From assembly GCA_021205095.1 (NCBI GenBank), contig JAJPYE010000019.1:1-52855 (forward strand): DNA of 52,855 nt, read 5' to 3'. Under the pieces are notes generated by a model that saw nothing but the letters and a program-made list of their open reading frames with translations, ran no database searches and was not told where the DNA came from. This stretch comes from Oscillospiraceae bacterium. Its GTDB lineage: Bacteria > Bacillota > Clostridia > Oscillospirales > Oscillospiraceae. A program made the position numbers and the translations under genes. This document shows, in pieces, positions 53 to 13,135 of this stretch; position 1 is the stretch's first letter, and every line of letters starts with the position of its first letter.

Positions 53-625
53 CTAATCCTTCTTTTCCGTCGGCAGCGGCGGAATATACGTCTGCAATCC
101 TTTCAGAACCAAATTTTGCATCAGTGCGCTGATTTCCTCCGCGCTGATATTTTTTCCCTCTTCATGCCAGTGCTGCAAAAGGCCAAACATGGCAGCGTTT
201 GCAAAGCTTACGAAATAATCAAAATGAGGGGTGTCTTTAGGAATCGGAAGATACGCCTCCACAAGAGGAATCAGCTCCTTCCTTATTTTCTCCAGAAAGC
301 CTGAATCTCCGTTCGGCCCGATCAGAAGATATAACTCCTCGTTCATGACCGCAAATATGCTTTGAAAAAGGGCGCCCGGCGACTGGTTCTCCGGCGGAAG
401 CTGATAAATCGTCTGCTTGATTTTCTCCAGCAGTTCCCCCTCCACATAGGCCAGCAGGTCGTCGGTATCTAAAAAATATTCATAAAAAGTGCTGCGGTTA
501 TAGCCCGCGCGTCTCGTAAGCTCGCTGGCCGCAATTTTTCCGATCGGCTTTTCCCTGACCAGCGACCAGAAGGAATCCACAAATCTCTGCCGCGTTCTTT
601 CTGTAATTTCCGGCTGCTTTTTCAT
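53..625 (-). CDS. TetR/AcrR-family transcriptional regulator (TetR1)
   Basis: A 190-aa DNA-binding regulator with an N-terminal TetR helix-turn-helix, seen in ASELTRRAGYNRSTFYEYF at about residues 33-51, and a helical C-terminal ligand domain with no recognisable ligand signature. I start it at the ATG at 625 because a GGAGGA ribosome site lies just upstream; the frame stays open 20 codons further but without one. It is divergent from the nitroreductase/sirtuin/PARG operon. A palindrome at 708-719 sits in its own promoter and at the predicted start of the operon transcript, so autoregulation and control of the operon are likely (inference). Its opening residues MKKQPE and its recognition helix closely resemble those of the second TetR at 6683-7243, which suggests a duplicated pair. 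Confidence 0.88.
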   Translation of the reverse strand: MKKQPEITERTRQRFVDSFWSLVREKPIGKIAASELTRRAGYNRSTFYEYFLDTDDLLAYVEGELLEKIKQTIYQLPPENQSPGALFQSIFAVMNEELYLLIGPNGDSGFLEKIRKELIPLVEAYLPIPKDTPHFDYFVSFANAAMFGLLQHWHEEGKNISAEEISALMQNLVLKGLQTYIPPLPTEKKD

Positions 626-672
626 ATGCTTTTCCTCCGCACACGATCCGACAGATTTGAAAAAATTGACGG

Positions 673-701
673 TTGATATTCCCATCTCTCATGAGTATAA
701 T
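673..701 (+). promoter_or_regulatory. Predicted promoter of the sirtuin/PARG operon
   Basis: TTGATA (673-678) and a perfect TATAAT (696-701) are separated by 17 bases. The predicted start is near 708, exactly at the palindromic operator, leaving a leader of about 113 bases before the first gene at 821. Confidence 0.6.
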
Positions 702-702
702 T

Positions 703-732
703 ATTTTACAACGGGTTGTTGGATGATGTCAA
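703..732 (-). promoter_or_regulatory. Predicted promoter of tetR1
   Basis: On the minus strand TTGACA (732-727) and TAAAAT (708-703) are separated by 18 bases. The palindrome at 708-719 lies in the spacer, where a bound repressor would block RNA polymerase. Confidence 0.6.
708..719. promoter_or_regulatory. Candidate TetR1 operator
   Basis: ACAACGGGTTGT is a perfect inverted repeat with 5-base arms and a 2-base centre. It overlaps both divergent promoters. The ACAAC half-site also appears in the operators near the second tetR gene. Confidence 0.55.
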
Positions 733-820
733 GGCAGAATTTTTCCTGCTGATTGTTCCCATCAATCAGGCAAAATTCCCCTTTTCGCAAGCGCTTTTAT
801 AGGTCGGGAGGCATACATAG

Positions 821-1126
821 TTGCTGTTTCGTATTATTAAGGCCTGGTTCAAATGGCGGAAGGATTGGGATTCCCTGTGCAACTGCTGCGGCAAATGCTG
901 CTACTCCCGCTCTGTGAACCCTGACGGTAAGGTAATCATCCATTACAGCAGCCCCTGCGAATATCTGGACACGGAAACCCGCCTATGTACGATTTATGCG
1001 GATCGCTTCCGCTTGTACGACCGCTGCGGGAAGGTAAATTTATTCACTGCGTTATTTAATCCGACCCTGCCGAAGGACTGCCCTTATGTGCAGACCTTTC
1101 GGTTGTGGGAAAAGGAACAGCCGTAA
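821..1126 (+). CDS. CxxCxxCC (YkgJ-type) metal-binding protein
   Basis: A 101-aa protein with the cysteine cluster CNCCGKCC (C-x2-C-x2-CC) at about residues 20-27 and further cysteines at SPCEYLD and RLCTIY. This is the pattern of the YkgJ/UPF0153 zinc- or iron-chelating family, whose biochemical role is poorly defined. It starts at TTG 821, with GGGAGG at 806-811 as the ribosome site; no in-frame ATG fits. It is the first gene of the operon that continues to 6678. Metal or Fe-S binding is a family inference. Confidence 0.75.
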   Translation: MLFRIIKAWFKWRKDWDSLCNCCGKCCYSRSVNPDGKVIIHYSSPCEYLDTETRLCTIYADRFRLYDRCGKVNLFTALFNPTLPKDCPYVQTFRLWEKEQP

Positions 1127-1170
1127 AAAACGAATATAATCACTCACATTATGGTAAGGGGGTATTCTTT

Positions 1171-1701
1171 ATGCAGACATTAGAGGCCATTGCAAAAAGA
1201 AAATCAACGAGGGACTTTGACCCGAACAGGGCCGTGCCGGATGAGGTCATCGACACCGTCGTAAAGGCGGGCTGTCAGGCGCCTATCGGTGGGAATCAGC
1301 GGGATTCCCTTCATCTGACGGTTTGCCGCAGCAGGGACATACTGGATGAGATCAACCAGTCCACTGCCGCCGCGATGAATGTTGAGGCGCGGGACTTCTT
1401 CTATGGCGCGCCCGCCGCCATTTTTGTCTCTGCCGCTCCGAAGCAGATGGCGCCCAGCGTGGAATATGCAAACGCTGCCTGCGTCATCGAGAATATGCTG
1501 ATCGCCGCGACGGACGCCGGGGTGGACAACATTTATCTCTGGGGCGCCGTTCAGGCGCTGGCAAAGAATCCTGAACTGTGCGCAAAAATGGGGATACCTG
1601 AGGGCTTCCGACCTGTTTCCGCCGCCGCAATCGGCTACAGCCTGAGCGGAGAGGCGCAGCCACGGGAGCTGTCCGTATCGCTCAACGTCAATTACATCTG
1701 A
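1171..1701 (+). CDS. Nitroreductase-family protein
   Basis: A 176-aa FMN-dependent nitroreductase-fold protein. The N-terminal RKSTRDFDPNR is the usual FMN-phosphate-binding opening of the family, and the C-terminal half has the typical ANAACVIENMLIAA and alpha/beta pattern. It starts at ATG 1171 behind TAAGGGGG (1155-1162). Such enzymes reduce nitro groups, quinones or enones with NAD(P)H and act as dimers; the substrate here cannot be told. It is the second gene of the operon, followed at 88 bases by a flavodoxin, which suggests a shared redox step. Confidence 0.85.
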   Translation: MQTLEAIAKRKSTRDFDPNRAVPDEVIDTVVKAGCQAPIGGNQRDSLHLTVCRSRDILDEINQSTAAAMNVEARDFFYGAPAAIFVSAAPKQMAPSVEYANAACVIENMLIAATDAGVDNIYLWGAVQALAKNPELCAKMGIPEGFRPVSAAAIGYSLSGEAQPRELSVSLNVNYI

Positions 1702-1788
1702 GGAAAACCGGCAGGCAGCATCCGCCGAAGAGGATAAGCGCTCTTCGATGGAGGCTGCCTGTTGACCGATTACGAAGGAGGATTCGGT

Positions 1789-2247
1789 ATGAAAACACTG
1801 ATTGCTTATTATTCCAGAGGCGGCACGACGAGAAAGGCGGCCTATAAGCTGCAAAAGCTGACGGACGGAGACATATTTGAAATTACCGGCGAAAAGAATT
1901 ATGGCGGCTATTTCAAGGCCCTTGGCATCTCCAGAAAGGAGTTTTCCGAAAATGAGCTTCCACAGGTAACGGAAAAAGTGACGGATATGGAGTCCAACGA
2001 CCGTATCCTGCTCGGATTTCCGATTTGGTACAGCAAGTGTCCGCAGTTGGTGATGTCCTTCCTCTCCCAGTATGAGCTGTCCGGGAAGGAGATATATCCC
2101 TTCTGCACCAGCGGCACCAGCGGGCCGGAGCAGGCGGTGGAGCAACTGACAAAGGCCTGCCAGGGAGCGACCGTTCATGCAGGACTCCGCTTAAACAAAT
2201 GGGATGAAGAAAAGGTCAAAGGATGGCTCGAAGGAAGTAAGACATGA
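1789..2247 (+). CDS. Flavodoxin-like protein
   Basis: A 152-aa flavodoxin-fold protein. The P-loop-like YYSRGGTTRKAA near residues 7-18 is the FMN-phosphate site, and GFPIWYSKCPQ at mid-protein is the usual flavodoxin_4 signature. It starts at ATG 1789 behind AAGGAGG (1775-1781). The stop codon overlaps the start of the next gene (ATGA), so it is translationally coupled to the first sirtuin. It probably carries electrons or reduces quinones in the cytoplasm. Being coupled to an NAD-consuming enzyme is unusual. Confidence 0.85.
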   Translation: MKTLIAYYSRGGTTRKAAYKLQKLTDGDIFEITGEKNYGGYFKALGISRKEFSENELPQVTEKVTDMESNDRILLGFPIWYSKCPQLVMSFLSQYELSGKEIYPFCTSGTSGPEQAVEQLTKACQGATVHAGLRLNKWDEEKVKGWLEGSKT

Positions 2248-2969
2248 AAAGCGAATATGCGCGGCTGAAGGAATACATCGACCAAAGCGAAAAAACCGTC
2301 GCCGTCACCGGGGCGGGGATCTCCTATCGCTATGGGATGCGTCGGCTGAAGGAGAGCGTAGGCCGACTGAACGCCGGGCGGATATTTTCCGCCGCCTATG
2401 TCCGCAAACACCCGGAGCAATTCTATGCGGTCATGAAGGACGCCTTCCTGGACGCGACGTTCGTGAAGGGGCCGAGCGCTGTCCACAAACAGCTTGCGGC
2501 ACTGGAACAGCAGGGAAAGCTCTATGGCATAGTAACCCAGAACCTGGACTGTCTGCACACCATCGCCGGGTCTGAAAACGTGGTGGAGTTTCAGGGGAGC
2601 TTTCGGGACAACGTCTGCATTGACTGCGGCGCGCGCTGTTATGACTATCAGATATGGAACCAGGGCCATATGCCCCAGTGCGAAAAATGCGGCGCGCCGC
2701 TGATGCCGACCAGCTTCTGCATGGACTTCGCGGGCCGTGACAGCGTCGCCAGGGAGAATATGCAAAAGGCCATCGATATGATTGCTGAGGCGTCGCTGGT
2801 GATTGTCATCGGTACCACCGGCTTTCGCAGTGAGGAATATTTAAGCCGGATGAAGGCCGGGACAAAGCTTGTACAGGTCAACCCCTCGCCGACCGGCTTC
2901 GACGGCATCGCCGATTTGAATATCCGCGCGGAGGCCGCAGAGGTCTTCGATGCGGTTCTGAACGGATAA
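2244..2969 (+). CDS. Sirtuin-fold protein A, class-M-like (Gln for catalytic His)
   Basis: A 241-aa Sir2-fold protein. It shows the Rossmann motif GAGIS (23-27), TQNLDCLH (98-105) with the conserved Asn100 and Asp102, a Cys4 zinc site (C125, C128, C146, C149) and VIGTTG (188-193). The sirtuin catalytic His, normally in an E-[LF]-H-G-S context, is Gln117 (EFQGS). The usual PDFR segment after GAGIS is missing. A His-to-Gln exchange with Asn kept is the pattern I recall for the macrodomain-linked sirtuins (SirTM) described as protein ADP-ribosyltransferases rather than deacetylases, so I infer transfer of ADP-ribose from NAD. It overlaps the flavodoxin by 4 bases and is followed by a paralogue and an ADP-ribose hydrolase. 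Confidence 0.85.
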   Translation: MKSEYARLKEYIDQSEKTVAVTGAGISYRYGMRRLKESVGRLNAGRIFSAAYVRKHPEQFYAVMKDAFLDATFVKGPSAVHKQLAALEQQGKLYGIVTQNLDCLHTIAGSENVVEFQGSFRDNVCIDCGARCYDYQIWNQGHMPQCEKCGAPLMPTSFCMDFAGRDSVARENMQKAIDMIAEASLVIVIGTTGFRSEEYLSRMKAGTKLVQVNPSPTGFDGIADLNIRAEAAEVFDAVLNG

Positions 2970-3008
2970 GGGAGCGTTCCTATGGGTATTCTGAAAGGAG
3001 ATCAGCGG

Positions 3009-3710
3009 ATGGACAAAATACAGCAGCTATCCGACTATATTGACCAGAGCCATACGATAGTAGCCGTCACCGGGGCGGGGATCTCCGTGGCCGGGGGCGG
3101 CGTCACATACGGGCAGATGATCTTTTCCCGCCGGGGCCTGGGCAGTCGGCGAGGCTCCGACGCCAGCTCCTTCCTGCCCACTTATCTGGAGACGATGTTC
3201 TCCTATCAGCCCAGCTTCGCCCATTATGCCCTCGCAGAGCTGGAGGCGGAGGGAAAGCTCCTCGGTATCATCACCACAAACGTAGACTGTATGCACACGA
3301 TTGCCGGGTCGAAAAATGTGGCGGAGATACAGGGCAGCCTCCAGGTCAACTGCTGCGAAGCCTGCGGGCGGCATCACGACGGCTATGAGATATGGAACCA
3401 GGAGGAGCTGCCCCGGTGTGAGGCCTGCGGCGGGGCGATACTGCCCTGGCCCCTTTACAGCCATATCGGGCTGTGGGACGCAGATGTGGAAAAGGCGCGA
3501 GACTGGATCGCAAGAGCGGATTTGATTCTGGTTATCGGAACCCACGGCAATTTCGGGAACGCATACTGGGATCGCCGGAGGCGGGACGCCGTTATCGTGC
3601 AAATCAATCCGGGGCATACCGGCTTCGACGGGGCAGCGATCCTGAATATCCGGGAGGGATCCGACGATGTATTTCAAAAGCTGATGAAAGTGCGGGGCAA
3701 AAATGGCTGA
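3009..3710 (+). CDS. Sirtuin-fold protein B, class-M-like (Gln for catalytic His)
   Basis: A 233-aa paralogue of the preceding sirtuin. It has GAGIS (22-26) followed by a Gly-rich GGGVTYG segment resembling class M sirtuins, TTNVDCMH (89-96) with Asn91 and Asp93, EIQGS with Gln108 where classical sirtuins have His, a Cys4 zinc site (C116, C119, C137, C140) and VIGTHG. It starts at ATG 3009 behind GAAAGGAG (2993-3000); an earlier ATG at 2982 lacks a ribosome site. Its end overlaps the PARG-like gene by 8 bases, so the two are coupled. The two sirtuins differ strongly in the loop after GAGIS, which suggests different targets or a heteromer (inference). Confidence 0.86.
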   Translation: MDKIQQLSDYIDQSHTIVAVTGAGISVAGGGVTYGQMIFSRRGLGSRRGSDASSFLPTYLETMFSYQPSFAHYALAELEAEGKLLGIITTNVDCMHTIAGSKNVAEIQGSLQVNCCEACGRHHDGYEIWNQEELPRCEACGGAILPWPLYSHIGLWDADVEKARDWIARADLILVIGTHGNFGNAYWDRRRRDAVIVQINPGHTGFDGAAILNIREGSDDVFQKLMKVRGKNG

Positions 3711-4716
3711 ACAGGAAAGGAATACAGACTTATCCGAAGAGGAACGGATGAAGCGGATGGCGGCGCAGATGCGCGCGGCGGAATATCAGGGTCTTTCCAA
3801 GGAGGAGATACAGGAAAGAGAGCGGCAGAAGGAGTTGCACAGAAAGCAAAATATAGCGGAGCTGGAGGACACCCTGACCATTCTGGAAAAAGGCGGCTAT
3901 CAAAAAGATGACCGGGAGGTACGGCTGCATTTTTCCCCGGAGCAGATGCGGGAGGTTCAGGTGTTTTTGCCGGAGGATTTGGCAGCGCTCGTTTCCGCGG
4001 AGAAGGAGGCCTCAGAGGGTCGAGACGGCTGCGCCCTTGACTGCCGGGATATAGATGCCCTGGCTCTGGCCCAGGAGCAGTATGAGGGCCTGCGGGCCGC
4101 CGGAGAAGGGGAGCCGAAGCTCCTGGTGCTGAATCTGGCCAGCGCCACTCAGCCGGGGGGCCACACCCGGAAGGGCGCCAGCGCCCAGGAGGAGGATCTG
4201 TGCCGGAGAACGTCTCTGCTTCTGTCCCTGGAGAGCAAGAACGCCAAACGATATTACGACTATAACAACGCCAAAAAGACCCGCATGGGGTCTGACGGCG
4301 TTATGCTCTCCCCCTATGTGGAGGTGGTGAAGGACACCTCGTCAGAGACGCTGTCCGAGCCGTTTCCCATCGCCGTCATGAGCTGTGCGGCCCCAATGGT
4401 GCGGCTGGGGCTGGAGGGAATGAGCCAGGAGGAATATGAACAGATGCTCTATAAGCGCATCCAGGGGATGCTGCTTGTGGCGGCGTCCCAGGGCTATCGG
4501 CATTTGATTTTAGGAGCCTTTGGCTGCGGCGTTTACGGAAACGACGGGGCAGTGGTATCGGATTTGTTTGCCCGTGGAATCCGGGAGTTTGCCTATGCCG
4601 GAAAGAACAGCGGCCAGCTCTTTGATTCCATCCAGTTTGCCGTCCTCTGCCGTCCGGGAAAAGATTACAACTACAGAGAGTTTTGCAGAAACTTCTCCCG
4701 CGGCAGGATTTCCTGA
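3703..4716 (+). CDS. PARG-like ADP-ribose glycohydrolase, TIGR02452 family
   Basis: A 337-aa macrodomain-type protein. After a charged helical N-terminal segment (about residues 1-60), the bacterial PARG signature appears: NLAS (144-147), QPGGHTRKG (150-158) and AQEEDLCR (161-168), whose paired glutamates are catalytic in the family. The C-terminal part has LILGAFGCGVYGN, another hallmark of TIGR02452/DUF2263. The usual GGG loop reads GGH here. The family removes ADP-ribose from proteins or polymers, so in this operon it should reverse what the two upstream sirtuins attach (inference). Start ATG 3703 lies inside the end of the sirtuin B gene. Confidence 0.85.
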   Translation: MAEQERNTDLSEEERMKRMAAQMRAAEYQGLSKEEIQERERQKELHRKQNIAELEDTLTILEKGGYQKDDREVRLHFSPEQMREVQVFLPEDLAALVSAEKEASEGRDGCALDCRDIDALALAQEQYEGLRAAGEGEPKLLVLNLASATQPGGHTRKGASAQEEDLCRRTSLLLSLESKNAKRYYDYNNAKKTRMGSDGVMLSPYVEVVKDTSSETLSEPFPIAVMSCAAPMVRLGLEGMSQEEYEQMLYKRIQGMLLVAASQGYRHLILGAFGCGVYGNDGAVVSDLFARGIREFAYAGKNSGQLFDSIQFAVLCRPGKDYNYREFCRNFSRGRIS

Positions 4717-4742
4717 CAGCGGCGCAATAGGAGACCAGCAAT

Positions 4743-6212
4743 ATGAGCAATTCCACGATTTATGACCGTTTTGAAGAGGTGGCGGCGCAATCCCCTGAAC
4801 AGCCTGCCATTGTGGAACGGGCGCGGTTTATGACCTACGCCCAGCTTGACCGGCGCATTGACGTGATTGCGGGAAATTTCCCCTCGCAGGAGAATTTTAT
4901 CGGTATCGTGGCAGACCATGGGGCGGATCTTATCGCCTCCATTTTTGCCGTGCTGAAAACCGGCGCGGCCTATGTTCCGGCGGAACCGGATTTCCCGGAG
5001 GAACGCATCCGCTTTATGATGCAGGAAAGCCGCGTAGGCTTTATCATCACCCAGAGAAAATACCAGGAGAAGCTGAAGGGCTTTCAACTTCTGTTTTTAG
5101 AGGATATAAAAGAAATGCCCCAAACACGGCCAGGCAGACGCGCTGCGTCCCCGGAAGCTCTGGCCTATATTCTATACACCTCCGGCTCCACCGGCGTGCC
5201 GAAGGGCGTCTGCGTGACGAACGCCAACGTGTGCCATTATGTCCGGGCGTTTCAGCGTGAGTTTCACCCTGCTGCCGGGGACGTGATGCTGCAATACTCC
5301 GTCTGTTCCTTTGACATTTTTGTGGAGGAGGTTTTCACTATCCTTCTCTCCGGGGCGGCCCTGGCGATTCCAGACGGCGGCGCAAGGGCAGATGTGGTTT
5401 CTCTGATGGACTTTGTGCGGGAAAAGCGCGTGACCATCCTCAGCGGTTTTCCTTATCTTTTGATGGAGATGAACGGGCTTGAGAAAATCCCCTCCAGCCT
5501 GCGGCTGCTGATCAGCGGCGGCGACATTCTCCGGGAGAGCTATGTCAGTCATCTCCTGCCCCAGGTCACGGTTTATAATACCTATGGCCCGTCCGAGACC
5601 ACCGTATGCTGCACCTATTTCCGCTGCAACGGCCAGACGGCGCTGGAGGATGGAACCTATCCCATTGGAAAAGCGGTGCTTGGCTCAGCCGTCAAGCTGC
5701 TGGATGAGAACATGAACCCCGTCCCTGAGGGCGCTGTGGGGGAAATCTGTATATCGGGGGGCGGCATCTCCAATGGGTATCTTGACACAAGCAAAAATCA
5801 AATGTTTGTGACCGGCCCAGACGGCCAGCCTGTCTATCGAAGCGGCGACCTGGGGTATCTTCTGCCGGACGGCAATCTGGCGTTTCTCCACCGCAAGGAC
5901 TCTCAGGTGATGATTCTTGGGAAACGGGTGGAGCCGGAGGAGGTAGAAAACGTCCTCTGCGACTGCGAGGAGGTGCAGACCGCCGTGGTATGTCCGTTTA
6001 CGGATGAGCAGGGTCTCTCCTATCTGACCGCCTATGTTGTCCCGGAGGGGTCGGGATTTGTCCTTTCTGAGGTAAAAAAGAAGCTGTCCCGCTACCTGAC
6101 TTCCTTTATGATGCCGGAGTATTTTGTACTGCTGGATCATATCCCCCTGACGCCCAACGGGAAGCCGGACGTGAAAAGCCTGCCAGTTGTTTTGAAGGAG
6201 GGTGTCTGCTGA
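4743..6212 (+). CDS. Stand-alone amino-acid adenylation enzyme (AMP-binding, DltA/NRPS type)
   Basis: A 489-aa ANL-superfamily enzyme with the NRPS-type core motifs in order: LYTSGSTGVPKG (A3, about 144-155), FDIFVEE (A4, Asp191, which in NRPS domains binds a substrate alpha-amino group), NTYGPSETT (A5, 279-287), YRSGDLG (A7, 365-371) and LTPNGKPDVK (A10, Lys474). It should activate a carboxylate, probably an amino acid, as its adenylate. Length and domain plan match DltA, but no carrier-protein domain or gene is nearby. It starts at ATG 4743 behind AGGAGA (4729-4734), 26 bases after the PARG-like gene. The acceptor and product are unknown. Confidence 0.85.
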   Translation: MSNSTIYDRFEEVAAQSPEQPAIVERARFMTYAQLDRRIDVIAGNFPSQENFIGIVADHGADLIASIFAVLKTGAAYVPAEPDFPEERIRFMMQESRVGFIITQRKYQEKLKGFQLLFLEDIKEMPQTRPGRRAASPEALAYILYTSGSTGVPKGVCVTNANVCHYVRAFQREFHPAAGDVMLQYSVCSFDIFVEEVFTILLSGAALAIPDGGARADVVSLMDFVREKRVTILSGFPYLLMEMNGLEKIPSSLRLLISGGDILRESYVSHLLPQVTVYNTYGPSETTVCCTYFRCNGQTALEDGTYPIGKAVLGSAVKLLDENMNPVPEGAVGEICISGGGISNGYLDTSKNQMFVTGPDGQPVYRSGDLGYLLPDGNLAFLHRKDSQVMILGKRVEPEEVENVLCDCEEVQTAVVCPFTDEQGLSYLTAYVVPEGSGFVLSEVKKKLSRYLTSFMMPEYFVLLDHIPLTPNGKPDVKSLPVVLKEGVC

Positions 6213-6213
6213 G

Positions 6214-6678
6214 TTGGAAATCACAATAAAAAAAGCCAGCGCCTCTGATTTAGAGGCGCTGATGCGTTGGCGGGAAATGGTTTTGCGGGACGTGTTTTCA
6301 ATTCCGGCGGAAGAAAATATAGACGCGCTTCTCACTGCAAACCGAATGTATTACCGCGGCGCACTGGAGAAGGGCGAGCATATCGCCGGTTTCGCTTATA
6401 AAGGAGAACAGGCTGTAGGCTGCGGCGGTATTTGCCTCTATCAGGAGATGCCTTCGCCGGATAATCCAAGCGGCAGGTGCGGGTATCTGATGAATATTTT
6501 CACCGCCCCGGAGGCGCGAAAGCAAGGCGTTGGAAGAACGCTGGTCGAATGGCTGGTGCAGGAGGCAAGGCGCTGGGGCGCGGAAAAAATCTATCTGGAA
6601 ACAACGGAGCAGGCGCGTCCTATGTATCAAGAAATGGGATTTTGCGATATGGAGGGGTATTTAAAGCTCGAACCATGA
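6214..6678 (+). CDS. GNAT-family N-acetyltransferase
   Basis: A 154-aa acetyltransferase of the GNAT fold. The acetyl-CoA site is seen in IFTAPEARKQGVGRTLVEWL, with the Q/R-x-x-G-x-G/A motif, and the C-terminal ARPMYQEMGF is the usual beta5-alpha4 element. I start at TTG 6214 because AAGGAGGG (6195-6202) is spaced for it. A GTG at 6202 is also in frame but lies on the ribosome site itself. It overlaps no gene and is the last member of the operon, ending 4 bases from the convergent tetR2 stop. The target could be the product of the adenylating enzyme, or this could be a resistance or modification enzyme. Confidence 0.82.
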   Translation: MEITIKKASASDLEALMRWREMVLRDVFSIPAEENIDALLTANRMYYRGALEKGEHIAGFAYKGEQAVGCGGICLYQEMPSPDNPSGRCGYLMNIFTAPEARKQGVGRTLVEWLVQEARRWGAEKIYLETTEQARPMYQEMGFCDMEGYLKLEP

Positions 6679-6682
6679 TCCG

Positions 6683-7243
6683 TCAGGCGTTTTCCCTCAT
6701 CTCCGGCCAGTACCAGTTTTCAAACAGGCGCTGTATCATGTCCAGCAAATCCTCGTCGGAAAGGGCGTCCGGGCTTTGGAGGTTGACGGATATGGCATAA
6801 AAGATGCCATAAAAGTATATGTCCCTCACCACCTGCTTTTTCGGGGTGTCATTGCCCAGGCGGTATACGTTGTAGGTCACGTTTTCCCGTATCCTTCTTA
6901 AAAAGTGGGAACGGTTCTGCTCCGACAGCAGGATGGACACCCGTTCCTTCTGCTCGTGAAAGCAGCGAATGACCGTTTCAAAAAACTGCCGCTGCCCGAT
7001 TTGGTCGTCTGTACGCTGGGAATCCAGGGCCGCCCGTGTGCTTTCCAGAAACTGATCCTCCGCATACTCCATCAGAGCAAAAACATCCTGAAAATAACGA
7101 TAAAAGGTGGTGCGGTTGTATCCGGCCAAATCTGTTATTTCCTGAATCGTAATCTTATAAATACTCTTCCTTTTCGCAAGCTGGAAAAAGGCGCTCACAA
7201 AGGCTTCTCTTGTGGCGTCCGTGACCTCCGGCTGCTTTTTCAT
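6683..7243 (-). CDS. TetR/AcrR-family transcriptional regulator (TetR2)
   Basis: A 186-aa regulator with TetR helix-turn-helix QEITDLAGYNRTTFYRYF at about residues 34-51 and a helical C-terminal domain of the TetR_C type. It opens MKKQPEVTDATRE, nearly the same as TetR1 at 53-625. The start at ATG 7243 has GGGAGGGG upstream. It is divergent from the two ABC exporter genes, and three copies of a candidate operator lie in the 250-base gap. It most likely represses itself and the exporter until an effector binds. Confidence 0.88.
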   Translation of the reverse strand: MKKQPEVTDATREAFVSAFFQLAKRKSIYKITIQEITDLAGYNRTTFYRYFQDVFALMEYAEDQFLESTRAALDSQRTDDQIGQRQFFETVIRCFHEQKERVSILLSEQNRSHFLRRIRENVTYNVYRLGNDTPKKQVVRDIYFYGIFYAISVNLQSPDALSDEDLLDMIQRLFENWYWPEMRENA

Positions 7244-7493: not shown

Positions 7494-9290
7494 ATGCTAC
7501 ACATCTTCAGTAACATGAAGGCCAAGGACAGATGGCTGGCGCTTTTGTGCGTGTTGTTTGTCTGCGGCCAGGTCTATTTTGACCTGCGGCTGCCGGATTA
7601 CACGGCGGAAATCACCGTGCTGATAAGCAGCGAGGTGACCGAGATGTCCCAGTACTTCACCGCAGGCGGGAAAATGCTGGGCTGCGCTCTTTGCAGCGCC
7701 GCTCTCACAGTGATCGTGGGCTATATGGCGGCCATGATTGCGGCGGATTTCTCCTTTGACATCCGTGAAAAGCTTTTCAACAAGGTGACGGCCATGGGCA
7801 GCGCCGAGATCAAGAAATTCTCCATTGCCAGCCTTATCACCCGCACTACCAACGACGTCACACAGATACACATGATTATCGCCATGGGGCTTCAGATGCT
7901 GATCCGCGCCCCCATCATGGCGATCTGGGCCATCATCAAAATCGTTGGGAAAAGCTGGCAGCTCTCCGCAGTTGTCCTGGCGGCGGTGGTGATCGTGGTC
8001 GGCTCCATGATTGTGCTGCTTGCCATCATGATCCCGAAGTTCCGCATTGTCCAGCGCCAGATCGACGATGTGAACCGGCTCACGGAGGAAAACCTGAACG
8101 GTATTCGTGTCGTCCGGGCGTTCAACGCGGAAAAGTACCAGGAGGACAAATTCGAGACGGCCAACAGCGCCCTGATGAAGACCCAGCTCTTCACCGGCAG
8201 AGGGATGGCGTTCCTGTCCCCTATTATGATGTTCGTCCAGAGCTGTGTGTCCGTGGCCATTTATTATGTGGGCGCTGTACTCATTAACGCCATCGACGTA
8301 CCCCTGACTGGCACGGCGGCGGAGATTGCCACCGCCATCTCCGACCGCTCGGTGATGCTGGGCGAGGTGGTCTCCTTCAGCTCCTATGCGCTGTATGTGA
8401 TTATGTCCTTCGTGATGCTGCTGATGATCTTCATGCTACTGCCCCGTGCGGCGGTTGCTGCCAATCGTATCAATGAGGTCATCGATTCTGACATCACTGT
8501 GACAGAGGGTACTGAACACAAATCCGACGAGGTCGGAAGCATTGAGTTTAAGAACGTATCCTTCCGCTATCCCGACGCCTCGGAGGACTGCCTGAAGCAT
8601 ATCACGTTTTCGGCGAAACAGGGGGAGACCGTGGCCTTTATCGGCGCCACCGGCTCCGGCAAATCCACTCTGGCCGGGCTGGCCGCGAGACTTTACGACA
8701 CCACGGACGGAACCGTCCTGCTGGACGGGAAGGACATTTCCCAATACAACTTTGAGACGCTCTATGATAAGGTGGGCTATATTCCCCAAAGGGCGACCCT
8801 GTTTGCCAACACGGTAGAGGGCAATATTACCTTCGGCGACAGCGGACACGCAATAACGGAGGCCGATGTGGAAAATGCGCTGGACATCGCCCAGGCAACG
8901 GACTTTGTCTCCGCCATGGACGACGGCGTAAACAGTTGGATCTCCCAGAGCGGCTCCAACGTGTCCGGCGGACAGAAGCAGCGCCTTTCCATTGCACGGG
9001 CTATTGCCAGAAAGCCGGAAATTTTGATTTTTGACGATTCCTTCTCGGCCCTGGACTATAAGACCGACCGCACACTGCGGCAGCGCATCAAAACCGATCT
9101 GAAGGACACAACCTGTCTGATCATCGCCCAGCGTATCGGCACCATTCGCCATGCGGATAAAATCGTGGTGCTGGACGACGGCGCGGTGGCCGGGATCGGC
9201 ACGCACGACGAGCTGATGAAGAATTGCCCGGTTTATCAGCAGATCGCCCTGTCGCAGCTCTCCGCTGAAGAGCTTGCGGCAAACGCGTAA
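7494..9290 (+). CDS. ABC exporter half-transporter, degenerate-site subunit
   Basis: A 598-aa type IV ABC exporter half: six membrane helices in about residues 15-330, then an ATPase domain. Walker A is GATGSGKS (about 383-390) and the signature is the canonical VSGGQ (about 489). Walker B ends ILIFDD, with Asp in place of the catalytic Glu, and the H-loop reads IIAQR, with Gln for His. These changes mark the subunit whose own Walker motifs form the non-hydrolysing site in TM287/288-type heterodimers. It starts at ATG 7494 behind AGGAGG (7483-7488) and is 14 bases upstream of its partner. The substrate is unknown; control by TetR2 suggests a drug or small toxic compound. Confidence 0.92.
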   Translation: MLHIFSNMKAKDRWLALLCVLFVCGQVYFDLRLPDYTAEITVLISSEVTEMSQYFTAGGKMLGCALCSAALTVIVGYMAAMIAADFSFDIREKLFNKVTAMGSAEIKKFSIASLITRTTNDVTQIHMIIAMGLQMLIRAPIMAIWAIIKIVGKSWQLSAVVLAAVVIVVGSMIVLLAIMIPKFRIVQRQIDDVNRLTEENLNGIRVVRAFNAEKYQEDKFETANSALMKTQLFTGRGMAFLSPIMMFVQSCVSVAIYYVGAVLINAIDVPLTGTAAEIATAISDRSVMLGEVVSFSSYALYVIMSFVMLLMIFMLLPRAAVAANRINEVIDSDITVTEGTEHKSDEVGSIEFKNVSFRYPDASEDCLKHITFSAKQGETVAFIGATGSGKSTLAGLAARLYDTTDGTVLLDGKDISQYNFETLYDKVGYIPQRATLFANTVEGNITFGDSGHAITEADVENALDIAQATDFVSAMDDGVNSWISQSGSNVSGGQKQRLSIARAIARKPEILIFDDSFSALDYKTDRTLRQRIKTDLKDTTCLIIAQRIGTIRHADKIVVLDDGAVAGIGTHDELMKNCPVYQQIALSQLSAEELAANA

Positions 9291-9304
9291 GGAGGTGCTT
9301 TATT

Positions 9305-11152
9305 ATGCCAGAAAAAAATAACAACAGATCTTCTGTTCGCACCGGCGCTCCTATGCGGAGAGGCCCCATGGGCCGTGGCCCTGGCGGCGGTGGAAAGGCA
9401 AAGAACATGCGGGGCGCGCTGATGAGCCTTATGTCCTACATCAGAGGCCAGGCGGGCATCGTTATCTTTGCCCTGGTGCTGGCCGCCGCCGGCGCGGTGT
9501 TTACCATCATCGGGCCGAACCAGCTCAGCCGCCTGACAGATTACATTTATGACGGTCTTGCCACCACCATTGACATGGACGGTGTCCTGCGGGTGGCGCT
9601 GCTGCTGGTGGGGATATATCTTGCCAGCGCGGTATTCAATTTCATCCAGCATTTTATCATGCAGACCGTGACCCAGCGAACCGCCAGACGGCTGCGCGGG
9701 GACATTGACACCAAAATCAACCGCCTGCCCCTGAAGTATTTCTCCGGCAACGCCGCAGGCGATGTGATGTCCCGCATGACAAACGACGTGGACATGATCG
9801 GTCAGGCCATGTCGAACAGCCTGTCGAACCTGGTCACAGCGGTGGCCCAATTCATTGGCTGCCTGATCATGATGTATTACACCAATTGGATCATGGCCAC
9901 CACCACTGTTGTGGCAACCGTTATCGGTATTATCCTGATGGTGGTCATTATGAGCCATTCCCAGAAGTACTTCACCGCCCGGCAGGAGAGCCTGGGCGAC
10001 ATGAACGGCTATATCGAGGAGATGTACAGCGGCCATGATGCCATCCGCATTCTGAATGCCGAAAACGAGGTAACAGGCAAATTCTCCTCTCTGAGCCAGG
10101 CGGTGCGGAAAGCAGAGTTTCGCTCTCAGTTTCTGTCCGGCCTGATGCAGCCGCTGATGACCTTCATCGGAAACCTGGGCTATGTGGCAGTCTGCGTGGT
10201 GGGCGCATGGCAGATCATCGAGGGCAATATTACCTTCGGCGTGATCACGGCATTCCTTATCTACACCCGCCTGTTTGAGTCCCCTCTGCGGCAGATCTCC
10301 ATGGCCATGACCCAGGTTCAGTCCTGCGCCGCCGCCTCCGAGCGTGTCTTTGAGTTCCTGTCCGAGGAGGAGATGGAGGACGAGTCCAGCAAGACCCAGC
10401 GCATTGATACCGTACACGGCGAGGTGGAGTTCCGTCATGTGAAGTTCTCCTATCCCAGCGCACCGGACAAGGAGATCATCCACGACTTCAATGTGAAGGT
10501 AGCGCCGGGACAGAAAGTGGCCATCGTCGGGCCCACCGGGGCGGGCAAGACCACCATGGTCAACCTGCTGATGCGGTTCTTCGAGCCGACGGGCGGCGAC
10601 ATCCTTATCGACGGCATTCCCACCTCGAACATCCCTCGAAGCAACGTACACAGCCAGTTCGGCATGGTTTTGCAGGACACCTGGCTGTTTGAGGGCACCG
10701 TCCGGGAGAACCTTCTCTATAACACCCAGGGCGTCACAGATGAGCAGATGATAGAGGCCTGCAAGGCCTGCGGCATACACAGCTTTATCAAGGCGCTGCC
10801 CCAGGGCTACGACACGGTTTTGAGCGACAACACCGCCATTTCCGCCGGCCAGAAGCAGCTTATGACCATCGCCAGGGCCATGATTCAAAACAGCCCCATG
10901 CTGATTCTGGATGAGGCCACCTCCAGCGTGGACACCAAGACAGAAATGATAACGCAGCAGGCCATGGATGCGCTGACAAATAAACGCACCAGCTTCGTCA
11001 TAGCTCACCGCCTTTCCACCATCAAGAACGCCGACATCATCCTCGTCATGCGGAACGGCGACATCGTGGAGCAGGGCAACCACGAGGATCTTCTGAAGCT
11101 CAACGGCTTCTATGCGGAGCTGTATAACAGCCAGTTCGAGGAAGTTTCCTGA
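9305..11152 (+). CDS. ABC exporter half-transporter, catalytic subunit
   Basis: A 615-aa partner of the preceding protein. An N-terminal Gly/Arg/Pro-rich cytoplasmic stretch (about residues 1-38) leads into six membrane helices, then an ATPase domain with Walker A GPTGAGKT (about 409), a degenerate signature ISAGQ (about 512), Walker B LILDEATSS with the catalytic Glu, and an H-loop IAHR with its His. Canonical Walker motifs here together with the canonical signature in the partner make the single hydrolysing site of the heterodimer. The start ATG 9305 has AAGGAGG directly upstream, overlapping the previous stop region. Confidence 0.92.
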   Translation: MPEKNNNRSSVRTGAPMRRGPMGRGPGGGGKAKNMRGALMSLMSYIRGQAGIVIFALVLAAAGAVFTIIGPNQLSRLTDYIYDGLATTIDMDGVLRVALLLVGIYLASAVFNFIQHFIMQTVTQRTARRLRGDIDTKINRLPLKYFSGNAAGDVMSRMTNDVDMIGQAMSNSLSNLVTAVAQFIGCLIMMYYTNWIMATTTVVATVIGIILMVVIMSHSQKYFTARQESLGDMNGYIEEMYSGHDAIRILNAENEVTGKFSSLSQAVRKAEFRSQFLSGLMQPLMTFIGNLGYVAVCVVGAWQIIEGNITFGVITAFLIYTRLFESPLRQISMAMTQVQSCAAASERVFEFLSEEEMEDESSKTQRIDTVHGEVEFRHVKFSYPSAPDKEIIHDFNVKVAPGQKVAIVGPTGAGKTTMVNLLMRFFEPTGGDILIDGIPTSNIPRSNVHSQFGMVLQDTWLFEGTVRENLLYNTQGVTDEQMIEACKACGIHSFIKALPQGYDTVLSDNTAISAGQKQLMTIARAMIQNSPMLILDEATSSVDTKTEMITQQAMDALTNKRTSFVIAHRLSTIKNADIILVMRNGDIVEQGNHEDLLKLNGFYAELYNSQFEEVS

Positions 11153-11394: not shown

Positions 11395-12033
11395 ATGGGG
11401 ACAGCCACGTCTCCGCAGTATCTGAAAATCGCGCTGGACATAGCGGCGCGGATAGCCCGCGGCGAGCTGCCGGAGGGCAGCACTATCTATGGTCGTTCCG
11501 TGATGGCGTCGGAATACGGCGTCTCGCCGGAAACCATTCGCCGTTCGCTTCATCTTCTGGCCGACATGAAGGTGGTGGAGATCAAGCACCAGACCGGCGT
11601 GAAGGTCGTTTCCGCTGACAGCGCCAGGCGTTATATTGCAAATTTCGCCGAGTCCAGCGACGTACACAGCCTGCGGGAGCATCTGCGAGACCTTCTTGCG
11701 GAGCATCAGGATCTGACCACCCGCATTGCAGACACCGTCACCGCTCTGCTTCAGGCCAGGGAGACCTTTTCCGCCGCCCATGACCCGCTGCCGACCTATG
11801 AGGTGTCCGTCCCCGCGAACTCGCCGGTCATTGGCAAAACCATCGGCGCGCTGAGTTTCTGGCAAAATACCGGCGCGACCATCACCGGCATACGGCGGGG
11901 GAAAAACGTTATCGTCTCCCCCGGCCCCTATGCCGAGCTGTACGGCGGCGACGTTCTGCTCGTTGTCGGCGCCCCTGCCGCTGCGGCAGCCGCGCAAGTT
12001 ATCGTATCTGCGAAGGAGGAATCTAATGATTGA
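11395..12033 (+). CDS. GntR-family regulator with C-terminal TrkA_C domain
   Basis: A 212-aa regulator. Residues about 5-75 form a GntR winged helix (QYLKIALDIAARI, then SVMASEYGVSPETIRRSL). A helical linker follows, then a TrkA_C/RCK_C domain (about 135-205) with the typical PVIGKTIGAL opening and the ending LYGGDVLLVVG. TrkA_C domains bind small ligands such as cyclic dinucleotides or nucleotides in K+ and osmolyte systems, so ligand-responsive control of the following transporter is likely (inference). It starts at ATG 11395; GGGAG at 11379-11383 is the nearest ribosome site. Its stop overlaps the start of the ATPase gene. Confidence 0.85.
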   Translation: MGTATSPQYLKIALDIAARIARGELPEGSTIYGRSVMASEYGVSPETIRRSLHLLADMKVVEIKHQTGVKVVSADSARRYIANFAESSDVHSLREHLRDLLAEHQDLTTRIADTVTALLQARETFSAAHDPLPTYEVSVPANSPVIGKTIGALSFWQNTGATITGIRRGKNVIVSPGPYAELYGGDVLLVVGAPAAAAAAQVIVSAKEESND

Positions 12034-13135
12034 ATTTAAAAACGTGTGCAAAAGCTATGGGAAATCGCAGATTTTGAAGAATCTCAGCTTCACCATTGGG
12101 GACGGTGAATTTATCGTCCTCATCGGCCCGTCCGGCTGCGGCAAAACAACGACGCTGAAAACGATAAACAGGCTGGTCGAGCCAGACAGCGGCACAATCT
12201 GCATCGACGGAAAAAATATCCAGGAGGCCGACAAGGACGATCTCCGCCGTCATATCGGATACGTCATCCAGCAGATCGGCCTGTTCCCCAACATGACCGT
12301 GGCCCAGAACATATGCGTCGTGCCGAAGCTCCTGAAATACAGCAAGGAAAAGTGCAGCGAAATCGTTTCCGAGCTTCTGAAAATGGTGAACATGGAGGCC
12401 TACGCAGATAAATATCCCAACCAACTCTCCGGCGGGCAGCAACAGCGAATCGGCGTGCTGCGGGCCCTGGCCGCATCCCCGCCCATCGTGCTGATGGACG
12501 AACCCTTCGGCGCCCTTGACCCGCAAACCAGGGAGGTTTTGCAGGACGAGGTAAAGAATCTTCAGAAAAAGCTGAACAAAACCTTTATTTTTGTCACCCA
12601 CGACATGGACGAAGCCCTGAAACTGGCGGACAGAATCTTTTTCATGGACGATGGCCAAATCGTTCAAATGGCGACGCCGGAGGAAATGCTGGAGCATCCG
12701 GCAACCGTGCGTGTGGAGAGCTTTCTTGGCAAGCACACTGTCGGCGTGACCGCTCCGTCCAAGGTGGAGGACTATATGCGCTCCAATATCCAAACCATGC
12801 GCAAAGGCCGGGGCGTTCGGGAATGTGCCGAGCGCATGGCGCGCTACAACGTGGACACCCTGATCATCTCCGACAATGACGGGCACTATGTTGGAACCGT
12901 CTCCATCGGCGACATTCGGAAGTGGGGCCGGGATTTGGAGAGCATCGACCCGATTATCCGCAACACCACCCGCACGGTTCGCCTGGGCGACGACGCGAAG
13001 GAGTGCTTCGATTATCTTCTGGACGCCGGTGAGAGCTATGTAGTCGTTCTTCGCGAGGACGACACCATCGCCGGTATCGTAACGAAAACCAGCATCGCCA
13101 AGTCCGTGGCTGAAAATCTTTGGGAAAACGCATGA
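12026..13135 (+). CDS. Glycine betaine/choline-type ABC transporter ATPase with CBS domains (OpuCA-like)
   Basis: A 369-aa ATPase. It carries Walker A GPSGCGKT (about 33-40), signature LSGGQQQR, Walker B VLMDEPFGALDP and a normal switch His in FVTHDMDEA. Two C-terminal CBS motifs (about 250-365) follow, as in OpuCA and ProV, where they sense ionic strength or nucleotides. Start ATG 12026 has AAGGAGGA at 12013-12020; the 8-base overlap with the GntR gene and the ATGA overlap with the permease show a single operon. The ergothioneine ATPase EgtV has the same plan, so the substrate is uncertain. Confidence 0.88.
   Translation: MIEFKNVCKSYGKSQILKNLSFTIGDGEFIVLIGPSGCGKTTTLKTINRLVEPDSGTICIDGKNIQEADKDDLRRHIGYVIQQIGLFPNMTVAQNICVVPKLLKYSKEKCSEIVSELLKMVNMEAYADKYPNQLSGGQQQRIGVLRALAASPPIVLMDEPFGALDPQTREVLQDEVKNLQKKLNKTFIFVTHDMDEALKLADRIFFMDDGQIVQMATPEEMLEHPATVRVESFLGKHTVGVTAPSKVEDYMRSNIQTMRKGRGVRECAERMARYNVDTLIISDNDGHYVGTVSIGDIRKWGRDLESIDPIIRNTTRTVRLGDDAKECFDYLLDAGESYVVVLREDDTIAGIVTKTSIAKSVAENLWENA

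Follow-up and report, generated by a model that had tools for sequence, protein, structure and literature searches.

A gene cluster of gut Clostridia probably constitutes a previously undescribed system of reversible ADP-ribosylation. The representative studied here lies in the window, that is, bases 1-52855 of contig C49 (the whole stretch of DNA analysed), which belongs to a 66-contig, 2.34-Mb draft genome of an Oscillospiraceae bacterium. According to the open reading frame (ORF) list and Pfam/NCBIfam searches, eight plus-strand genes (821 to 6678) are flanked here by two minus-strand TetR genes. Two of the eight encode sirtuins, SirA and SirB, and one encodes a macrodomain hydrolase of the microbial poly(ADP-ribose) glycohydrolase type (PARG). 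An earlier reading made from the letters alone (the sequence-only reading) described these genes as co-directional, with overlaps of 4 bases (flavodoxin/SirA) and 8 bases (SirB/PARG), and the ORF list agrees.

Judging by active-site residues and gene neighbourhoods, we give a probability of about 0.55 to the cluster being a reversible ADP-ribosylation module, in which sirtuins with glutamine in place of the catalytic histidine (Gln-sirtuins) would act as writers and the PARG as eraser. SirA, SirB and their paralogs would transfer ADP-ribose from NAD+ onto an acceptor in place of lysine deacylation. Loss of the histidine would disable deacylation, while the glutamine, by analogy with class M sirtuins (SirTM), may orient the ribose for transfer. 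The PARG-type macrodomain, whose gene overlaps that of SirB, would then remove the ADP-ribose. Candidate acceptors are a flavoprotein of the operon, another protein or a small molecule. The cluster brings to light a large sirtuin clade which carries the glutamine substitution of class M without the class M motif, usually comes as several paralogs and has an altered PARG as partner. If it does write and erase ADP-ribose, sirtuin-based ADP-ribosylation has more than one type of partner, and microbial PARGs gain a candidate dedicated writer that is directly testable in vitro.

Both window sirtuins matched the Pfam SIR2 family (5e-24 for SirA and 2e-19 for SirB). Residues were counted in 190 cluster sirtuins of at least 200 aa from 85 loci (17 shorter ORFs of 207 were omitted); the median length of cluster sirtuins is 243 aa. 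The catalytic histidine is present in none of the 190, being replaced by glutamine in 188, by glutamate in one (L115) and by tyrosine in one (L088). The L088 protein is an outlier that groups with ordinary sirtuins and lacks the catalytic asparagine and aspartate, each of which is kept in 189 of the 190; the four zinc cysteines are kept in all. By comparison, the histidine is retained in 28/28 ordinary sirtuins of the same order. The underlying genome-collection scan returned 262 relatives, of which the best 80, ranked by likeness to SirB, were kept; they were found with two patterns, one of which demanded QG. A family search of 150 genomes is free of such bias, and glutamine occurred in 18/18 cluster sirtuins of the alignment drawn from it without any Gln pattern.

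The GAGxS and NxDxxH motifs and the four zinc cysteines are held in common with CobB-type sirtuins. TQN is kept in SirA-type proteins, and SirB-type proteins have TTN, which stands at the same place in seven of eight SirTMs. Both groups have lost the GIPxFR region, each in its own way. The AlphaFold models of SirA (predicted local distance difference test score, pLDDT, 88.8) and SirB are predicted to have a sirtuin fold nearest to Sir2Tm and Sir2Af. None of the 50 matches listed for SirA by Foldseek or VIA, nor of the 50 listed for SirB by Foldseek, is titled a class M sirtuin; such an absence is not evidence. CobB-type deacylases (Sir2Tm, Sir2Af1/Af2) are the closest solved structures (28-30% identity) as well as the closest predicted fold, but they differ from the cluster proteins in the histidine, the GIPxFR region and the PARG of the operon.

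The hydrolase matched TIGR02452 with 146.5 bits (cut-off 50) and PARG_cat_microb/PF10021 with 89.7 against 23.5 (E 3e-25); it is of PARG type and not a Zn-macrodomain, as the sequence-only reading held. Like the microbial PARGs of known structure (tcPARG 3sig, DrPARG 5zdb), cluster PARGs belong to the family above the curated cut-off and have QEE as well as the conserved asparagine before it, both in 63/63 sequences. Unlike these, they have sirtuins as partners, about 50 residues preceding the Pfam match and a replaced third glycine. Thus, the signature GGGx(6,8)QEE is present in its QEE part and absent in its GGG part: the third position holds Gln in 34, His in 14, Arg in 12, Lys in 1 and Gly in 2 sequences, a replacement in 61 of 63. 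Elsewhere in the phylum, GGG was found in 8 of 9 other TIGR02452 loci, the ninth not being matched by the pattern. Given the Gln-sirtuins and the loss of the third glycine, writer and eraser are both altered at the catalytic site relative to their nearest ordinary relatives. Such a change at the glycine would fit a substrate that is not poly(ADP-ribose).

Neighbours were counted at 82 non-duplicate loci with a SirB above 350 bits, many of which are cut by contig ends. Duplicates (L024, L025, L027 and L029, equal to L046, L072, L079 and L120) were removed, and L030, L031, L032 and L114, having no SirB above 350 bits, stand outside the count. SirA lies near SirB at 69 loci and PARG at 64 (62 plus L066 and L084, where it is hidden by overlapping gene calls). 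Nitroreductases, belonging to any of three groups, follow with 51, an Rrf2 regulator with 31, a YcgN-like protein encoded on the same strand with 25, an esterase with 24, ABC genes with 20 and a flavodoxin with 18. Among the 37 loci that extend 3 kb in both directions, 32 have SirA, 26 a nitroreductase, 12 the AMP-binding adenylating enzyme and 12 the GNAT acetyltransferase. SirB and PARG occur without SirA at L085, L087 and L103. The median gap from SirA to the SirB-type gene is 11 bases (67 pairs), and the median overlap of SirB-type and PARG genes is 14 bases (62 pairs). Two to four sirtuin paralogs were found at 72 of 85 loci: two full sirtuins at 42, three at 27 and four at 3 (L051, L078, L121); the other 13 have one.

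Since dozens of loci in other genomes show the same gene order, the cluster is beyond chance. Its recurrence in many Clostridial genomes bears out the neighbourhood check proposed by the sequence-only reading, and the gene set is therefore not confined to the one genome, an outcome which that reading had named as counting against itself. In the family search, SirB matches of 1e-54 or better were found in 8 genomes, the next genome giving 1.7e-31; several of the 8 contain all or some of the block nitroreductase-flavodoxin-SirA-SirB-(third sirtuin)-PARG. The cluster is rare in the phylum. A PARG alignment search of 398 phylum genomes gave 653 bits for the window genome and at best 136 for 13 others, and in a phylum search with the phage sirtuin described below only the window genome and one 35%-identical match passed 1e-30. 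Among the matches listed for 295 genomes of the order, cluster sirtuins score 1.8e-109 or better and all others 2.1e-52 or worse.

The adenylating enzyme and the GNAT, which the sequence-only reading had named among the differences from known macrodomain-sirtuin loci, are accessory and do not define it, since each is found at 25 of the 82 loci. The adenylation gene is directly followed by GNAT in 25 pairs; GNAT without the adenylating enzyme occurs at L061, and the reverse at L048, at a contig end. The window enzyme scores 339 bits against TIGR01733 (cut-off 317.4). Its A10 lysine and an aspartate are kept in 24/24 sequences, positions which we take to be those of amino-acid activation. No PP-binding carrier was matched on the window contig; three were matched elsewhere in the genome. 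The esterase of the relatives, likewise accessory, is a putative PF00756 protein of 230 aa (e.g. L110:4522-5214) found at 22 of 26 loci with GNAT and at two without; the window has none.

Acetyl-CoA synthetase is regulated by a GNAT enzyme and a CobB-type sirtuin (the Acs/Pat/CobB scheme). The joint presence of an AMP-forming enzyme, a GNAT and sirtuins at about 25 of the 82 loci, with the A10 lysine always kept, could accordingly reflect reversible lysine acetylation of that enzyme, the PARG clearing O-acetyl-ADP-ribose. We consider this very unlikely, because the histidine of deacylation is missing throughout the cluster sirtuins, most loci have SirA, SirB and PARG without the adenylating enzyme and GNAT, and a locus would have no need of more than one sirtuin.

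Class M sirtuins are defined by QG for HG, by short motifs (GVGx[NT]TP among them) and by macrodomain linkage in the available part of Rack 2015 (PMC4518038); Zn-macrodomains are treated in that of Ariza 2024 (PMC11490716). The cluster resembles SirTM/Zn-macrodomain operons in the glutamine and in the adjacency of a sirtuin gene and a macrodomain-fold hydrolase gene. As in the extended SirTM operon, flavin oxidoreductases and a substrate-adenylating ligase are present. It differs from them in the PARG-type hydrolase, in having two to four sirtuin paralogs as a rule, and in the sirtuins themselves, which are shorter and contain GVGx[NT]TP in 0/190 cases; the motif was found at 7 of 11 Zn-macrodomain loci examined, and SirA-group sequences have GTTGFRS in 21/21 cases. 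Profile searches (Pfam/NCBIfam) of the eight operon genes gave no match to a GcvH-L carrier or LplA, in agreement with the sequence-only reading, which had seen no GcvH-like or lipoyl protein. In the window genome, where this linkage was looked for, the sole Zn-macrodomain match is on contig C14 and not on C49. It forms a separate SirTM/Zn-macrodomain pair (L166:2589-4287) with the motif variant GTGMNTP, so that the two systems coexist in one genome.

In sequence identity, the cluster sirtuins stand closer to ordinary sirtuins (mean 32%) than to SirTM (21%). Among the alignment columns that all three groups conserve, 14 are common to all, 5 are shared by cluster and ordinary sirtuins only, 1 by cluster sirtuins and SirTM only (the Gln), 1 by ordinary sirtuins and SirTM only, and 2 differ. 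The label "class-M-like" given by the sequence-only reading therefore stands as regards the glutamine and the TTN of SirB, and falls as regards the pyrophosphate motif, the length and the identity values. Class M membership was not adopted, QG being present and both the motif and the Zn-macrodomain partner missing. An independent origin of the His-to-Gln change, expected from the identities, was not adopted either, as the trees do not support it. Two of them weakly favour the opposite, joining cluster sirtuins and SirTM against ordinary sirtuins on long branches with support of 86 and 86/68, not starred; both omit L088 (the outlier sirtuin), L164 (SirTM), L199 (ordinary), L011 (duplicate) and roughly half of the cluster sequences. 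The third tree places cluster sirtuins neither with SirTM nor apart from them, and the substitution may have arisen once or twice.

Several points weigh against a module of sirtuin writers and a PARG eraser. A glutamine in place of histidine argues more securely for the loss of deacylation than for the gain of transferase activity. The counterpart of SpySirTM Arg192, the partner of the glutamine, was not located by alignment, and the SirB model is of moderate quality (pLDDT 74.6). The class M motif and Zn-macrodomain partner, as said, are absent. PARG is not near every SirB, being found at 30 of the 37 loci with 3-kb flanks (31 with L084), and L075 combines SirB with the adenylating enzyme, GNAT and esterase in the absence of PARG and SirA. 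L076 has the same composition; here a contig end cuts the locus. Finally, the available part of one review describes microbial PARGs as acting on the polymer strictly as exo-hydrolases; PARG is said there to spare the terminal protein bond (PMC7050489). Given this specificity, removal of mono-ADP-ribose by a PARG would be an unusual activity.

Phage Sirtuin-Macro pairs resembling toxin-antitoxin systems are two-gene units with Macro domains, according to the part of PMC9503650 available; they are like the cluster in that a sirtuin adjoins an ADP-ribose hydrolase. Neither PARG nor TIGR02452 occurs anywhere in that text. Judged by titles and the beginnings of abstracts, none of the papers listed in literature searches describes a sirtuin/TIGR02452 cluster, and the term TIGR02452 is absent from each of the 20 papers listed out of 422 in one of them. 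Earlier publications of de Souza and Aravind could mention such pairs.

Two more distant Gln-sirtuins come from genome G059 and from the IMG/VR contig L161. In an unrooted tree they make up a supported third branch of the clade, next to the branches of SirA and SirB. On L161 (8900-10699), a MarR regulator, a TM1586-type nitroreductase and the Gln-sirtuin stand between phage tail genes in the manner of a cargo cassette. This nitroreductase is 54% identical to that of L095. The group to which the latter belongs is present at 13 cluster loci, with its gene immediately ahead of SirA at 8. The link between nitroreductase and Gln-sirtuin thus reaches beyond the cluster, as the phage relative has both. 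A relative in a phage tail region, together with the loss of GIPxFR in both groups, would also fit sirtuins that perform no transfer and serve as NAD+/ADP-ribose sensors or NADases, for example in toxin-antitoxin or phage-defence units with PARG as the antidote. This is distinctly unlikely: retention of the catalytic asparagine and aspartate is unlike a decayed fold, none of 7 proteins matched a PADLOC family (E 0.001), and the recurring neighbours that were identified are metabolic or redox enzymes, regulators and transporters. Spread of the cluster by phages was not adopted on the strength of a single IMG/VR contig, nor was spread by plasmids, where 14 records had a sirtuin match (best identity 36%) and all 27 PARG matches were below 60%. 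Beside the G059 sirtuin, on the opposite strand, lies a gene for a C_GCAxxG_C_C redox-active protein (L031:6101-6598).

Returning to reversible ADP-ribosylation by Gln-sirtuins and PARG, a stress regulator, TetR in the window and Rrf2 in many relatives, probably controls the module together with the flavin reductases. Because these reductases are accompanied by redox- or ligand-sensing regulators, redox or xenobiotic stress is the likely setting and presumed inducer; a similar setting has been proposed for class M sirtuin operons. The same neighbours could belong to a pathway of small-molecule ADP-ribosylation for detoxification or biosynthesis. In it, nitroreductase and flavodoxin would reduce a xenobiotic, Gln-sirtuins would cap it and PARG would reverse the capping, with the adenylating enzyme, GNAT and esterase making further modifications and the ABC pair exporting the product. 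The frequencies of these genes near SirB agree with such a pathway, as do the TetR, Rrf2 or MarR regulators, the nitroreductase adjoining the phage relative and one series of metagenome-assembled genomes (MAGs) from a koala, an animal with a toxin-rich plant diet; the replaced glycine of PARG could mark a different leaving group. We hold it to be unlikely all the same, given that the ABC, esterase, adenylation and GNAT genes are each found in a minority of loci, that such regulators and exporters are common neighbours, that the substrate is hypothetical and that a habitat is established for a minority of loci. ABC family genes lie within 7.5 kb of SirB at the 20 loci counted above and directly upstream of SirA at L054, L088 and L122. 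Membrane proteins with an HXXEE domain are repeated neighbours of the cassette (L047, L051, L055, L084, L097, L121).

The 80 kept records carry the accession prefixes JAJP/JAJQ (66), JAJB (11) and MSH (3); some share a genome, and the share of each series in the collection is not known. The MSH records bear the name Zagget, that of a koala from which faecal genomes have been deposited, according to the part of PMC5697889 available. The Zagget locus L073 shares 91.5% and 92.8% DNA identity with L074 and L121 over 9.1 and 6.9 kb, respectively, a likeness that points to hosts of a similar kind. A search of the literature for the animal behind the JAJP/JAJQ/JAJB MAG series found none; the tie to the koala holds for Zagget only, by name. 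The cassette may be linked to a single type of host gut. It would be a long shot that the cluster represents a second class of ADP-ribosylating sirtuins, in sets of two to four with a re-tooled PARG, which reversibly modify a small molecule handled by the nitroreductase and have passed between unrelated Clostridia in the guts of marsupials that feed on eucalypts, as a means of coping with dietary toxins.

The features of the window locus are compiled in Table 1.

Table 1. Features of the Gln-sirtuin/PARG locus and its surroundings in the window
Feature	Position	Strand	Remarks
TetR-family regulator (TetR_C_8 type)	53..685	-	Divergent from operon; Pfam; ortholog in same-genus genome (L024/L046)
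Promoter-like site, weak, TTGATA-17-TATAAT	673..701	+	Ahead of operon
YcgN-like small cysteine-cluster protein, TTG start	821..1126	+	59 bits, under curated cut-off 150
Nitroreductase-family flavoenzyme	1171..1701 (listed ORF 1105-1701)	+	Over Pfam cut-off
Flavodoxin (Flavodoxin_4)	1762..2247	+	Over Pfam cut-off
SirA, sirtuin; EFQGS, TQN kept, four zinc cysteines	2244..2969	+	SIR2 family
SirB, second sirtuin; EIQGS, TTN for TQN, four zinc cysteines	2982..3710	+	SIR2 family
PARG, microbial-PARG-type macrodomain (TIGR02452); QEE intact, His at third Gly of GGG	3703..4716	+	
Stand-alone amino-acid adenylation enzyme (AMP-binding), no carrier domain matched	4743..6212	+	Accessory
GNAT acetyltransferase	6202..6678	+	Over Pfam cut-off; accessory
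Second TetR-family regulator	6683..7243	-	Weak Pfam matches
ABC exporter subunit 1	7494..9290	+	Membership in system uncertain
ABC exporter subunit 2	9305..11152	+	Membership in system uncertain

The start of the nitroreductase at an in-frame ATG (1171) is a guess based on many homologues of about 176 aa. Promoter-like sites were no commoner than in shuffled sequences (4 found against a mean of 4.1). The ABC exporter pair (7494-11152) adjoins a TetR gene. Outside the cluster (window 11395-13135), a gene for a GntR/TrkA_C protein overlaps that of an ABC-CBS ATPase.

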